Shown here: one piece after another, positions 1-4,011 of the stretch
How the letters are laid out: the number at the start of each line of letters is the position of its first letter
How positions within the stretch are numbered: position 1 is the stretch's first letter
Source of the DNA: an uncultured Opitutaceae bacterium
GTDB taxonomy: Bacteria; Verrucomicrobiota; Verrucomicrobiia; Opitutales; Opitutaceae
DNA length: 54,721 nucleotides
NCBI GenBank assembly: GCA_903890485.1
Contig: CAITBM010000143.1
Span: 1-54,721, forward strand
Direction of reading: 5' to 3'
The notes under the pieces: generated by a model
What the model was told of the DNA's origin: nothing
Databases searched by the model: none
The model's input: the letters and a program-made list of their open reading frames with translations, nothing else
Program-made: the position numbers and the translations under genes

Positions 1-28
1 CGAATGCCGCCGCGCCCCTGGCGCGCGG

Positions 29-121
29 CTAGTGGCCGGCCGTCAGGGGGGGTCGCCGGAAGGCCTGCTGGACGAAAAGGCACAGGTTGTTTTTCCATTC
101 CGCCGGGTCGTGCGCGTGGAA
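29..121 (-). pseudogene. 3' stub of a truncated resident gene
   Basis: Reading the minus strand, an open frame ends at a TAG and encodes a protein-like C-terminus (HAHDPAEWKNNLCLFVQQ, then AFRRPPLTAGH). Going upstream, coding character is lost near base 120 and the frame closes with TAA a few codons further on. High GC stops at about the same place and the lower-GC islet begins. The residue pattern recalls C-termini of alpha/beta-hydrolase or esterase proteins, but it is too short to assign. The reading is inference: the 5' part was probably replaced when the neighbouring cassette arrived. Confidence 0.35.
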
Positions 122-244
122 AACGCATCGTGACCGTAGAACTGGTGCGTTTGGTTAGCGTTGCTTTCATACATTCGGAATCAAATCCACGCGAAATCCC
201 GGAGCGACTGAACTAGAGGCGGAAAATTGCTCCAGTTTCCAATT
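122..244. other. Lower-GC non-coding stretch at left edge of the islet
   Basis: No credible gene is seen between the resident-gene stub and the NUDIX gene. Base composition changes from very GC-rich to roughly balanced around position 120-140. No integrase, insertion sequence end or flanking direct repeat could be identified by eye. Confidence 0.4.
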
Positions 245-637
245 CTAGAGTTTAGTGGCCGCGAGTGCCGATATAAGAGGGATGTCGGCAGGTGCGAAAG
301 GAAGCTTGGATAGTTCAGACGGTGTGTCCCAAATAACTTGGGCATGGAAATTTAAGCGAATGTCCAGCGAACGTGGGAAAGCCCAATATGCTCGCAGAAG
401 GATTTCGCCTTTCGAGTAATTGTACCGGCTTTCGCCGAAAAAGTCGCCAATGTCCGTGTCGATTCCAAGCTCCTCCTTAAGCTCCCTAGCAAGGCACTCA
501 TGTTCGGTTTCGTCAGCTTCCAGCTTGCCTCCAGGGAATTCCCAAAGGCCCGCGAGCGCGTCAGTGTCTGGGCGTCGTGCAGCTAAGATTCGCCCGTTTG
601 CAATCAAGAGAGCAGCGATTACTACTGGTGAGCCCAT
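245..637 (-). CDS. NUDIX hydrolase, NudG/MutT-like (deoxy)nucleoside triphosphate pyrophosphohydrolase
   Basis: Complete 130-residue NUDIX protein. The NUDIX box is perfect: G37, E43, then R51-E52-L-K-E55-E56-L-G58-I, giving the metal-binding helix. Such enzymes hydrolyse NTPs to NMP and pyrophosphate. The C-terminal APADIPL motif and the LWEFPGGK lead-in resemble E. coli NudG, known for acting on 5-methyl-dCTP and oxidised nucleotides, at least as much as MutT. It is transcribed after the EVE-HNH gene, six bases from its stop codon, so the two form an operon. GC content is clearly below that of genes to the right. Substrate is inferred; an 8-oxo-dGTP role is equally possible from sequence alone. 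Confidence 0.88.
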   Translation of the reverse strand: MGSPVVIAALLIANGRILAARRPDTDALAGLWEFPGGKLEADETEHECLARELKEELGIDTDIGDFFGESRYNYSKGEILLRAYWAFPRSLDIRLNFHAQVIWDTPSELSKLPFAPADIPLISALAATKL

Positions 638-643
638 AATGAC

Positions 644-1639
644 CTAAGATATTCTTCGGCAGAGAAATACGTGATTTCTATGATATTCGAGATAACGTTT
701 CTGGCCCTCTGTAAAATGCCCAACATTTACTGGCGATAGTGTTTCCACGCCCATTTTTTGGAGAGATGGAAGATCTGCAACTGGGGCGATGACCAGCCTC
801 CCATTATCTTCAAATGAGATGAAACCGCGGTCAAAGAGATGATCAATGGAAGGCGTCAACAGTAGGCCGTTCTCGCCATCAAGGCGCTCTGGATTCGAGC
901 TATCCCTCCAAGGACGACAGTGGCTAGCCCTCAAATGCTCAATTCGATTAACCCGAGTTACGCGACAACAGTCTTCTAGCTTGAGAACCCGTTTCTTGAA
1001 GAGACCTTGACCTTTCCGAGCCTGGACGAGTGCTAACCGTTCGGTCTCGGGGATCTTGTCGTCTCCCTGTATCTCTTCCTGTAGATGTAGCTCCCATTGT
1101 GCAACCGCTGGGAGCGTATCGATTACACCCGGATCTTCATTCACCAGCTGCGGCTGGTTTGAGGCCATTGCCTGGTCAAATTCGTAGCCGATCAGCATCC
1201 CAAGCAAACGAGCCATATCCTCAGGTATTTCAGCAAGATACACAACTTCCTTTCCATCTCCGGTTGTTCGGAGCGGGGATCCTTCTGAGGGGAGCAGAGG
1301 GCGAATACGATCGATGTGATCCTTCGGGCGAATTTTTTGAGTAAGGGTCGCGAATGCTACGTCGACCTTCCACCCGATGAGATTCCAATAGGAACCTGCT
1401 GTTCCGAAGACGCCCGGCTTTGGGCATTCGTAACAGTAGCCGCGTGCAATTCCGATGGCCTGGATTTTTGTTTTTACGAACGAAAAAATCAAATCTCCTG
1501 GAGCGACCTCCCGCATATTTTCGTAATAGCGGTTGAATCGATCGCCATGGCGACCTCGGCTCGCCTTTGGCGACCAAAGGAATCCACCGGAAATCTCTTG
1601 TTTGGCTGTTTGGTTTTGATTGACCCACCAAAAACGCAC
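644..1639 (-). CDS. EVE-HNH endonuclease, probable modification-dependent (type IV) restriction enzyme
   Basis: A 331-residue two-domain protein. Residues 1 to about 148 form an EVE domain (PUA/YTH-like fold), opening with FWWVNQNQT and continuing with SPK, GDLIFSF and IGIARGYC; EVE domains flip out and read modified bases. Residues about 205-275 form an HNH nuclease with C224/C225, RASH (H240), ENGLLL (N257) and DHLFDRG (H267), the order expected for the beta-beta-alpha-metal active site. This architecture matches the EVE-HNH nucleases such as VcaM4I that cut DNA carrying 5-methyl- or 5-hydroxymethylcytosine. No methyltransferase is nearby, as expected for type IV restriction. Low GC suggests transfer. 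It is the first gene of a two-gene operon with the NUDIX hydrolase. Confidence 0.85.
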   Translation of the reverse strand: MRFWWVNQNQTAKQEISGGFLWSPKASRGRHGDRFNRYYENMREVAPGDLIFSFVKTKIQAIGIARGYCYECPKPGVFGTAGSYWNLIGWKVDVAFATLTQKIRPKDHIDRIRPLLPSEGSPLRTTGDGKEVVYLAEIPEDMARLLGMLIGYEFDQAMASNQPQLVNEDPGVIDTLPAVAQWELHLQEEIQGDDKIPETERLALVQARKGQGLFKKRVLKLEDCCRVTRVNRIEHLRASHCRPWRDSSNPERLDGENGLLLTPSIDHLFDRGFISFEDNGRLVIAPVADLPSLQKMGVETLSPVNVGHFTEGQKRYLEYHRNHVFLCRRIS

Positions 1640-1929
1640 TTAGGGATTCTCGGTGAACTCGGGTGCGGTGTCCAGGTTCTCCTCCCTACCTTTGCGTGGG
1701 CCACTCAATAGGGCGAATTTTCGCCAAGAATCCGGAAACCAGCACAATTTCAAAATTCCGGGCAGTTCGGGCAGTAGGCATACCGATGTACCAGTCTCCC
1801 AAAAATCCTTTAAAAACCTGGGTCACCCGAAATGACCACCCCGATTTTTAAAATCTCTCCTGATTTTATAAAAACTAACCTGGTAATTTAAAAACTTAGG
1901 TGAACTTCTCCAGAAACCTTGGCTCCGGC
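1640..1929. other. Low-GC intergenic region with A-tract repeats
   Basis: No credible coding frame. The part near 1640-1750 should hold the promoter of the EVE-HNH operon. From 1808 to 1905 three imperfect copies of a motif like (T)TTAAAAACYT followed by a GG-containing tail occur. Composition returns to GC-rich close to the 3' end of the dsbD-like gene, which marks the right edge of the islet. Confidence 0.45.
1808..1905. repeat. Three imperfect A-tract repeats
   Basis: Copies read TTTAAAAACCTGGGTCACC (from 1809), TTTATAAAAACTAACCTGG (from 1864) and TTTAAAAACTTAGGTGAAC (from 1887). They are partly degenerate and unevenly spaced. They could be regulatory, scar sequence from insertion, or chance in an AT-richer stretch. 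Confidence 0.3.
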
Positions 1930-4011
1930 CTATTTGAGTGCGTTCGTGACGACCGAAGGGGACAGGATCTCGGGGAGGATGACCGGATCCGGACGGCCGG
2001 GAAGCCAGATGAGGTTAAAGGGCACGGCGGCGCGGTGGTACTTCGCCAATTCCGCGGTGATCTGCGGGTCCTTGTTGGTCCAGTCTCCCCGAAGGGTCGC
2101 AATGTGCCGTTCCGCGAAGAGGTGGAGCACATCGGCCGAGTGGAACACGAGGCGCTTGTTGGCCTGGCAGGTCGCACACCAGCGCGCCGTGAAGTCCACG
2201 TAGACGATCCGGTTCTCAGACCGGAGCTTCTCGACGGACTCGGGGCTCCATTTTTCCCAGACGATGTCGCCGGGCGCCGCGGCCACGGGCCATCCCGTCC
2301 AGGCCCCGAGTGCCAGGAGGACGACGCAGGCCACGGTCCCAAACCGGGCCCTGCCCGGGGAGGCCCCCGGGGCGTTCCACCGGCCGTAGGTCCAGACCGC
2401 GAGCGCGACCAGGACGAGCCCGAAGAGGGCCGCGAGGAGGCCGTTCTCGGGCAGCTGGCCGGCCATGACCCAGACCAGGTAGGCGACCGTGGCGTAGAGG
2501 GGGAACGCCATCGCCTGCTTGAAGGTTTCCATCCAGGCGCCCGGCCGGGGCAGCACCTTGACCGCGGCAGGGAAGGCCGAGAGGAGCAGGTAGGGCGTCG
2601 ACAGTCCAATCGCGATCACGGTGAAGATTGTGAAGGATTCCAGGGTCGAGAGGGCGAGCGCGGCGCCGAGCGCCGGGGCAAGGAAGGGTGCGGCGCACGG
2701 GGTGGCGGCCACGGTCGCCAGGGCGCCCGTCAGGAACGAGCCGAGGAGTCCCGACTTGGACTGGAGACCGGACCCGATCCCGGTCGCCGTGAGCCCGAAC
2801 TCAAAGACGCCGCTCATGTTGAGGGCAAAGGCCAGCATCGCCGCCGCCAGGCCAAAGACAAAGGTGGGCGACTGGAGCTGGAATCCCCAGCCGAGCTGGC
2901 TTCCTCCCGCCCGAAGGACCGCGAGGATGCCGGCCAATACCCAGAACGACAGGAGGACCCCCGAGGTGAAGACCAGGCCGTGAAGCGTGACCTTTTTCCT
3001 GTCGGAGCCGGCCTGGTTCACAAAGCCGAGGATCTTGATCCCCAGGACCGGGAAGACGCACGGCATCAGGTTGAGGATCAGTCCCCCGACAAAGGCCAGG
3101 GCCAGGGTGCCGATGAAGCCGCCCGCGGCGGCGGGCGGCGCGGCGGGCGCAGGAGCCACGACCACCGGCAGGTCGTCAAAGGTCAAGCTGACCTTGAGCC
3201 CGGGCAGGGAGCCGTCGGCGCGCCATCCCTTCTGGGACGTGGCGACCCCCTTCAGGCGCTGGGCGTCGTTGGGGCCGTCGGAGGCGATGGGAAGCGTGAG
3301 GGTGAAGCCGCCCTTGCCGTCGCTCTCGACCTTCTGGGGCTGGTCGCTTGCGATGGTGCCGTCCTCGGAGAAGAAATGGAGCGCTTCGGGCCCGGGATGG
3401 GATGACCCCTCCCTGGGGGTGAGGCGGAGCACCGCCTCCTTCGCGCCCCGGGTGGCGGAGATCTGCCACGACGGATCGGCAACGGGCAGTTCCGCGATTA
3501 CCGAGCGCAGCCGCGTCCCGTAGGTCGGGTCGGCCCCGGGGGCCTCCGCCGCCACGGGGAGGGAGAGGGAGAGCTTGGCGCTTCCCGGGACGCACTCGTC
3601 CTTGCACATGAGCCAGTCGGCCGACGCCGCCAGGTCGACCCGGGTCCCGGGCTTGAGGTCCTTGGGCGGCGTGAGGGTGACGGGGAGCAGCACGTCGCCG
3701 TCGTAGCCGTTTCCGATCACGTTGCCCCGCGTGTCGGAGAGGACGATCGGGGCGGGCCAGGCGATGTCGCTGGCCGTCCATCCTGGGGGAAGGGACCACT
3801 TGATCGTCGTCGGCAGCCCGGTGCCGGGGTTCACCCAGTAGGTGTGCCAGTGTTCCGCGTGCACCAGGTGAAGGGCCACCGGAAAGGGGGTGCCGGGCTG
3901 GACGGAGGCGTCCGCCGAGACCAGGGACGCGGTCACCTGGGCCCGGCCGGTCCGCGGCGAGGCGAGGAGCGCGAGGGCTGCAAGCAGGACAAGGGCTGGC
4001 GTTCGCTTCAT
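1930..4011 (-). CDS. dsbD: Thiol:disulfide interchange protein, DsbD family
   Basis: A 693-residue inner-membrane protein with a signal peptide (residues 1-24, ending GRA). The N-terminal periplasmic domain resembles DsbD_N and carries a C136-x3-C140 pair. A multi-helix transmembrane electron-transfer domain follows, with C318 in LMPCVFPVLG and C439 in ATPCAAPF. A C-terminal periplasmic thioredoxin domain carries WCATC (C612, C615). This is the full relay that moves reducing power from cytoplasmic thioredoxin to periplasmic targets such as apocytochromes c or disulfide isomerases. It lies 58 bp downstream of a c-type cytochrome gene on the same strand, which fits a role in keeping haem-binding cysteines reduced. 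Confidence 0.9.
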   Translation of the reverse strand: MKRTPALVLLAALALLASPRTGRAQVTASLVSADASVQPGTPFPVALHLVHAEHWHTYWVNPGTGLPTTIKWSLPPGWTASDIAWPAPIVLSDTRGNVIGNGYDGDVLLPVTLTPPKDLKPGTRVDLAASADWLMCKDECVPGSAKLSLSLPVAAEAPGADPTYGTRLRSVIAELPVADPSWQISATRGAKEAVLRLTPREGSSHPGPEALHFFSEDGTIASDQPQKVESDGKGGFTLTLPIASDGPNDAQRLKGVATSQKGWRADGSLPGLKVSLTFDDLPVVVAPAPAAPPAAAGGFIGTLALAFVGGLILNLMPCVFPVLGIKILGFVNQAGSDRKKVTLHGLVFTSGVLLSFWVLAGILAVLRAGGSQLGWGFQLQSPTFVFGLAAAMLAFALNMSGVFEFGLTATGIGSGLQSKSGLLGSFLTGALATVAATPCAAPFLAPALGAALALSTLESFTIFTVIAIGLSTPYLLLSAFPAAVKVLPRPGAWMETFKQAMAFPLYATVAYLVWVMAGQLPENGLLAALFGLVLVALAVWTYGRWNAPGASPGRARFGTVACVVLLALGAWTGWPVAAAPGDIVWEKWSPESVEKLRSENRIVYVDFTARWCATCQANKRLVFHSADVLHLFAERHIATLRGDWTNKDPQITAELAKYHRAAVPFNLIWLPGRPDPVILPEILSPSVVTNALK

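Follow-up and report, generated by a model that had tools for sequence, protein, structure and literature searches.

A low-GC EVE-HNH nuclease and NUDIX hydrolase gene pair in an uncultured Opitutaceae bacterium: a possible two-part form of type IV restriction

Introduction

Classical restriction systems rely on methylation of the host's own DNA to shield it. This route is closed to nucleases that attack modified DNA, which need a host that is free of the mark. How, then, might a bacterium live with such a nuclease? Two adjacent genes from an uncultured Opitutaceae bacterium (phylum Verrucomicrobiota) raise this question. They lie near the start of a 54,721-nucleotide stretch of DNA, bases 1 to 54721 of contig CAITBM010000143.1 (GenBank assembly GCA_903890485.1), which we refer to as the window. 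One encodes a predicted EVE-HNH nuclease, and the other encodes a NUDIX hydrolase. An earlier reading of the DNA from its letters alone (the sequence-only reading) had suggested that the two form an antiphage cassette. We followed up this suggestion by computational comparison with other genomes, plasmids, and viral contigs. Our favored reading, to which we give a probability of roughly 0.5, is that the pair is a horizontally acquired two-gene restriction cassette in which a nuclease for modified cytosine is accompanied by a NUDIX enzyme that clears modified deoxycytidine triphosphate (dCTP), so that host DNA would be protected.

The nuclease resembles VcaM4I over its full length

The sequence-only reading assigned the first gene product to the modification-dependent nucleases because of its domain order, and comparison with VcaM4I (Protein Data Bank [PDB] entry 6yex) bore this out. 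Residues 1 to 325 of the window nuclease align with residues 1 to 306 of VcaM4I (E = 3.3e-82), indicating full-length homology with the same order of an N-terminal EVE domain and a C-terminal HNH domain. Pfam recognized HNH_2 only (residues 225 to 277) and gave no EVE match, so that the EVE part rests on the VcaM4I alignment; the PADLOC match was HNH. The residues that line the pocket for the flipped-out base in VcaM4I (Q10, T11, E15, W22, P24, W82, and Y130) are Q10, T11, E15, W22, P24, W85, and Y134 in the window nuclease, and the HNH residues H224, N241, and D250 are H240, N257, and D266; these roles in VcaM4I are taken from passages of PMC7897488. The intercalating wedge residue of VcaM4I, Q128, is E131 in the window nuclease. 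This position is Q in seven of nine other aligned EVE-HNH proteins, E in L086, and T in P0005, and Q128 is not family-defining. The strong homology points to a modified-cytosine-dependent nuclease, predicted to cut DNA containing 5-methylcytosine (5mC) or 5-hydroxymethylcytosine (5hmC).

The NUDIX protein belongs to a MutT/NudG-like group

The second gene product matched two Pfam families above their cutoffs, NUDIX_4 (1e-19; 70.8 bits against a cutoff of 35) and NUDIX (5.5e-17). Its Nudix box, which is at residue 37, is intact, as is the box of 14 other proteins that we checked, Escherichia coli NudG included; a Niallia protein described below was not among them. Its best PDB match was E. coli NudG (2rrk; E = 4.9e-26; 39% identity). 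The sequence-only reading had linked the protein to NudG and had taken its APADIPL tail as a sign of NudG, and neither point was supported. The protein scored 109.9 bits against NCBIfam PRK10546, for which the cutoff is 156, and fell on a branch separate from E. coli NudG in a tree. A tail of this type is general among MutT/NudG-like proteins: all 79 sequences covering it have D and 78 of the 79 have AD, one annotated MutT included. R72 and R77, which we take to be important residues of NudG, are missing from the window protein in the alignment. Its sole PADLOC match, at E values up to 0.1, was PDC-S07 (134.5 bits). This is no proof of a role in defense, since E. coli NudG and a rhizobial MutT also match the model, at 146.2 and 140.7 bits, respectively.

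In the tree, the window protein falls in a group of six sequences (support 90/81, fork not starred), five of which are linked to type IV enzymes of the McrA-type, EVE-HNH, or MrcB_N-HNH kind. The tree holds 80 short sequences with few columns and rough support; 58 of 61 genomic NUDIX loci appear under their locus names, L200 is included under its own name, and a length or stop filter removed two. Type IV-linked sequences are clustered yet arose several times, with 9 changes compared with 13.1 in shuffles, a value as low being reached in 1 of 500. Because most linked sequences are from plasmid records and most of the unlinked ones are from the phylum of the window, this clustering is perhaps partly due to sampling.

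NUDIX genes recur beside EVE-HNH genes but are uncommon there

A NUDIX gene lies directly beside 6 of 166 other full-length EVE-HNH copies, in three lineages. The genome collection contributed one pair among the best 80 of 204 EVE-HNH loci (L078, with NUDIX and EVE-HNH frames overlapping by 19 bp). Among 15 plasmid records with at least 80% coverage, four were paired by coordinates, one from Sphingomonas and three from Priestia, and the context was viewed for two. IMG/VR gave one pair among 65 full-length copies, found within the best 80 of 114 matches. Seven of 387 genomes of the window's phylum have a full-length EVE-HNH gene, which is paired only in the window's own genome, and phage records gave no full EVE-HNH match and two matches to HNH only. 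The three lineages are L078, the Sphingomonas plasmid together with an IMG/VR contig (L134/L252), and the Priestia plasmids. Gene order differs among them: NUDIX comes first in L078, Sphingomonas, and L134/L252, the genes are divergent in Priestia, and the nuclease comes first in the window. Two further loci, L053 and L071, were rejected as pairs because the NUDIX gene is 4.7 and 2.8 kb away, respectively, on the opposite strand.

Assuming about 0.3 such NUDIX genes per Mb, the chance of finding at least three lineages among 101 loci is roughly 1e-5, and the same formula worked by hand for 166 loci gives about 5e-5. Some of the 80 genomic loci end less than 300 bp from the gene (downstream in L026, L052, L055, and L072; upstream in L010, L020, L044, and L077), where adjacency may be missed. 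EVE-HNH/NUDIX adjacency, the check proposed in the sequence-only reading, is thus enriched above this rough chance estimate but uncommon for EVE-HNH genes themselves.

Related NUDIX genes adjoin or are fused to other type IV-like enzymes

The coupling of NUDIX and nuclease genes posited from the window, fusions included, recurs above chance with EVE-HNH, and the link is stronger for SauUSI- and McrA-type enzymes. In the plasmid collection, six SauUSI matches reach at least 80% coverage, and five of them have a NUDIX gene directly upstream; these five are in records from Latilactobacillus, Lactiplantibacillus, Staphylococcus aureus, Limosilactobacillus, and Hymenobacter, and the Fusobacterium copy has no NUDIX gene beside it. 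In S. aureus and Limosilactobacillus, the SauUSI match is in three pieces and is unannotated in those records. None of the SauUSI matches in viral contigs was confirmed. As a control, we considered type I HsdM in the same plasmid collection, where none of the best 60 of 3377 records (71 with at least 80% coverage) has an adjacent NUDIX gene. One of the HsdM records listed (NZ_CP083270) has a NUDIX gene within 5 kb, and this is the MrcB_N-HNH locus described below. As a separate observation, HNH nuclease matches directly adjoin matches to the DUF3427 helicase in two genomes of the phylum (G346:C110 and G232:C114).

Four of 20 McrA-type records with at least 80% coverage are linked to NUDIX; PADLOC classes these enzymes as type IV. 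In three Priestia plasmids, the NUDIX gene and a gene for an McrA-type HNH protein overlap by 4 bp in an operon (P0018 against 6ghc, 7.4e-21). In Paenibacillus polymyxa, an McrA-type HNH domain (9.8e-23 to McrA) is fused to NUDIX, and the first 270 residues have no assigned domain (P0011). An HNH-NUDIX fusion 57% identical to P0011 is present in IMG/VR with a MazG-like gene nearby (L133), and in L136 a NUDIX gene overlaps a frame-broken McrA-like gene. Other fusions join NUDIX to an EVE domain (P0029 in L135, in which residues 127 to 262 match the EVE part of VcaM4I at 2.8e-21 and residues 287 to 411 match NudG at 5.3e-23) or to a Vsr domain (P0012, Collinsella). In Priestia aryabhattai, an MrcB_N-HNH gene neighbors NUDIX, and the Priestia NUDIX proteins, which are 72 to 79% identical to one another, accompany three different nucleases. 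L200 and L183 hold HNH-NUDIX-helicase runs; no known reader domain is present in the HNH enzyme, and the helicase was assigned by eye.

Starting from NUDIX, we viewed 23 contexts from 60 plasmid records, picked partly by annotation; 14 show NUDIX next to, or fused with, a type IV-like nuclease or Vsr, and 9 do not. In the viral collection, 4 of 11 NUDIX loci are paired with or fused to type IV-like enzymes, and phage records gave 18 NUDIX matches. On the Selenomonas plasmid pSRC2 (L130, 4383-6550), a NUDIX gene of the same group is in a run with genes for an AAA ATPase and nucleoside 2-deoxyribosyltransferase, another nucleotide-pool enzyme. No nuclease is in view in L174 (3-1908), where a frame resembling a DUF2075-type helicase by eye overlaps the NUDIX gene.

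A MazG/DCTPP1-like pyrophosphohydrolase lies near some EVE-HNH genes

Several loci contain a gene for a second type of pyrophosphohydrolase, a MazG-like protein of 103 to 109 residues. P0025, one such protein, had a "pyrophosphatase" (4qgp, 1e-22) as its first match, followed by dCTP pyrophosphatase 1/RS21-C6 (6sqw and 2a3q, both 3.5e-17); the Lactiplantibacillus copy gave a weaker match (4.5e-7). In 8 of 80 EVE-HNH loci, a MazG-like gene lies no more than about 3.5 kb from the nuclease gene, in some cases in what looks like an operon, compared with 0 of 70 control loci, which are shorter in total (251 kb, versus 834 kb for the EVE-HNH loci). At the density found in relatives (72 copies in 95 genomes), about 0.17 would be expected (P about 2e-11, or about 6e-7 at a fourfold density), an estimate that is rough because the 80 loci come from taxa other than the density sample.

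In several loci, the MazG-like gene is accompanied by a Schlafen group 3 helicase, annotated DUF2075 in one record. Such a helicase adjoins the MazG/DCTPP1-like gene beside type IV-like nucleases in L036 (3006-5756) and L065 (4538-5943), as does a helicase annotated DUF2075 or DNA/RNA helicase in L126 (8298-10330) and L123 (6656-8910). We found no literature linking MazG with DUF2075. In L063 (6987-7916), a second nuclease (HNH_2) follows EVE-HNH with a 4-bp overlap, and L043 (5068-5997) has a second nuclease after EVE-HNH with an N terminus similar to that in L063; a MazG-like gene comes shortly after in both.

The host genome and a proposed mechanism

The window genome, which is 97% complete, has no match to the C5-methyltransferase family PF00145, a search that was positive in 10 of 14 genomes; it also has no second NUDIX match at E ≤ 0.001. 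According to passages of PMC10742078, E. coli Orf135 (NudG) and mammalian RS21-C6/DCTPP1 are 5-methyl-dCTP hydrolases (for NudG, see also the portion of PMC5389931 consulted), and a polymerase readily incorporates 5-methyl-dCTP in vitro. The same passages name degraded methylated DNA as the likely source and report phage kinases for modified monophosphates.

We therefore suggest that the NUDIX protein may exclude modified cytosine from the host's DNA, which would allow the cell to retain the nuclease; the lack of PF00145 in the genome and the 5-methyl-dCTP activity reported for NudG and the DCTPP1 family fit this idea. In the first step, for which homology is strong, incoming DNA that carries 5mC or 5hmC would have this base flipped out by the EVE domain and would be cut by the HNH domain. 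The NUDIX enzyme would then hydrolyze 5-methyl- or 5-hydroxymethyl-dCTP to the monophosphate. Modified cytosine from degraded phage or environmental DNA would in this way be kept out of host DNA, and the nuclease would spare the host. The same logic could apply to SauUSI and McrA-type nucleases and to the unrelated MazG/DCTPP1-like pyrophosphohydrolase. The gene pair, its domains, and its recurrence are observed; the NUDIX substrate, self-protection, and phage defense by the pair are putative.

Position and composition of the gene pair

The sequence-only reading described two genes of low guanine-plus-cytosine (GC) content six bases apart, and the frames, the gap, and the composition were all confirmed (Table 1). 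GC content is 50.2% in the nuclease gene and 52.9% in the NUDIX gene, against 66.7% over bases 2001-54721. A putative ribosome site of the AGG type, judged by eye, stands just before the NUDIX ATG. The window begins at contig base 1, and the sequence to the left of the pair is out of view.

Table 1. Features at the start of the window
Feature	Position	Strand	Description and basis
EVE-HNH modified-cytosine-dependent endonuclease (predicted)	644..1639	minus	331 residues, GTG start, first gene of pair; VcaM4I homology, HNH_2, PADLOC HNH
NUDIX hydrolase, MutT/NudG-like group	245..637	minus	130 residues, ATG start, second gene; Pfam NUDIX_4 and NUDIX
6-bp spacer, nuclease stop to NUDIX start	638..643	minus	sequence
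Low-GC (51.3%) segment holding both genes	1..1900	no strand	contig end to 3' side of dsbD-like gene; composition
dsbD-like gene	1930-4011	minus	named by eye

The dsbD-like gene is present in 11 congeners (E ≤ 1e-60). In the 10 of these with more than 1.4 kb in view, the content on its 3' side differs, with GC contents of 39 to 67% (judged by eye); the eleventh has 103 bases in view. The NUDIX gene is at none of the 11 dsbD-like loci, and none of 12 congeners has a NUDIX match at E ≤ 1e-10. One of the 12 (G007) has a long EVE-HNH match at 48% identity. We infer that the low-GC segment with its two genes was acquired horizontally, because of its composition, the differing content at the congener sites, and the absence of NUDIX from the congeners. 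The stretch 3' of the dsbD-like gene (1640-1930 in the window; L319-L329 in the congeners) is often low in GC and is a variable site that may collect foreign genes.

Alternative explanations

A number of observations weigh against the reading of the pair as a cassette that clears modified dCTP. The substrate of the NUDIX protein is predicted from relatives as distant as NudG, at 39% identity. The sequence nearest to it in the tree, L187, has no nuclease in view. A MazG-like gene is present elsewhere in the window genome (G000:C34). According to passages of PMC7897488, the E. coli tests of VcaM4I against T4gt involved no NUDIX partner, though that host itself has NudG. A partner is not needed everywhere, as no adjacent NUDIX gene is in view for 160 of the other 166 full-length EVE-HNH copies. 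Among the phylum genomes, NUDIX is directly beside at least 1 of 10 DUF3427 (SauUSI-like) matches, by coordinates (G425). P0011 and P0018 resemble McrA over the HNH domain only. An McrA-type HNH-NUDIX fusion on a Niallia taxi plasmid (L317, 1955-3439, minus strand) has lost Nudix-box residues and the APAD tail. The NUDIX part of this fusion is perhaps a binding module rather than an enzyme. No MazG-like gene is found at the 80 viral EVE-HNH loci, and a shared defense-island helicase module may explain part of the MazG enrichment.

Such observations bear on another account, in which the NUDIX gene is an ordinary sanitizing gene, acting on 8-oxo-deoxyguanosine triphosphate or more generally, that came to lie next to the nuclease at a variable site and has no functional link to it. 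The family is certainly common: PDC-S07 matches 292 of 387 phylum genomes (E ≤ 1e-10; match counts for PDC-S07 and DUF3427 in the phylum are lower bounds). Most of this NUDIX group therefore resembles housekeeping genes, because just two of the best 30 PDC-S07 loci in the phylum are paired, one of them being a query source, and 0 of 29 NUDIX loci in relatives have a type IV-like or HNH neighbor. Most EVE-HNH genes likewise do without NUDIX, and the site 3' of the dsbD-like gene does vary between congeners. A chance landing does not, however, readily account for adjacency that recurs in several gene orders and with overlapping frames, for three types of fusion (to a 5mC reader, a nuclease, or a repair enzyme), or for the difference in the plasmid collection between SauUSI (5/6) and the 60 HsdM records listed (0). 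We consider this account unlikely, though it is the strongest of the alternatives.

Rather than protecting the host, the NUDIX enzyme could act on the phage, by hydrolyzing hydroxymethyl-dCTP, and perhaps dCTP, during infection. The phage would then be left with a choice between modified DNA, which the nuclease would cut, and plain-cytosine DNA, which would be open to other defenses. The presence of pairs in the plasmid collection and in IMG/VR contigs is consistent with such a role, but loss of the modified nucleotide would presumably remove the mark that the partner nuclease needs, and we regard it as improbable. Least probable of all is that the NUDIX domain binds modified nucleotides released in infection and controls the nuclease by contact or translational coupling; the fusions to an McrA-type HNH domain and to an EVE domain and the degenerate Nudix box of the Niallia fusion would fit a sensor of this kind, but the window protein and all 14 others checked have an intact box, and nuclease and NUDIX are separate genes in the window.

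Discussion

The interpretation that we favor, a restriction cassette in which NUDIX clears modified dCTP, makes the pair a variant of type IV restriction, which is itself known. The window nuclease shares with VcaM4I its full-length homology, domain order, base pocket, and HNH residues; it differs in having E131 in place of the wedge residue Q128 and a NUDIX gene 6 bp downstream, and the text of PMC7897488 contains none of the words "nudix," "MutT," and "operon." The closest precedent for the pairing is in a survey of EVE proteins, in which the legend of a figure mentions MutT homologs beside SauUSI homologs (PMC7641849). As in the window, a type IV enzyme is directly beside a MutT/NudG-like NUDIX protein there. 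SauUSI is, however, a PLD-helicase-DUF3427 protein, unlike EVE-HNH, and NUDIX comes first with SauUSI and last in the window. The window NUDIX protein has the Nudix box, E33, and D118 in common with E. coli NudG/Orf135 (2rrk), whereas the nudG gene that we viewed is flanked by ynjF and ynjH, which lie on the opposite strand.

The word "nudix" is also absent from a survey of McrBC and CoCoNuT systems (PMC11090510) and from PMC11514479 and PMC12988326, both of which name PDC-S07. A pairing of EVE-HNH or SauUSI with NUDIX was not found as a described system in the literature searched, which comprised open-licence papers and no preprints and is weak evidence of absence. The statement in the sequence-only reading that no such system has been described therefore stands as far as an account of the pairing as a system goes, but it must be qualified by the MutT genes mentioned in that figure legend. 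The broader pattern, a nuclease with a NUDIX or MazG partner, may be new.

That NUDIX genes pair repeatedly with different nucleases hints that bacteria keep modified cytosine from their own DNA and so make this defense safe. We tentatively extend the idea to type IV restriction at large, which may often be a two-part affair: a reader-nuclease for modified cytosine and a private pyrophosphohydrolase that would clear 5-modified dCTP, recruited repeatedly, by operon or fusion, from the unrelated NUDIX and MazG/DCTPP1 folds. The host nucleotide pool, and not a methylase, would then define "self," and the window would hold the EVE-HNH/NUDIX version. If the partner does keep modified dCTP from the host pool, this would be a distinct way of telling self from nonself. 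A role would also emerge for the NUDIX- and MazG-like genes that lie beside such nucleases and are annotated just as mutT or "nucleotide pyrophosphohydrolase."

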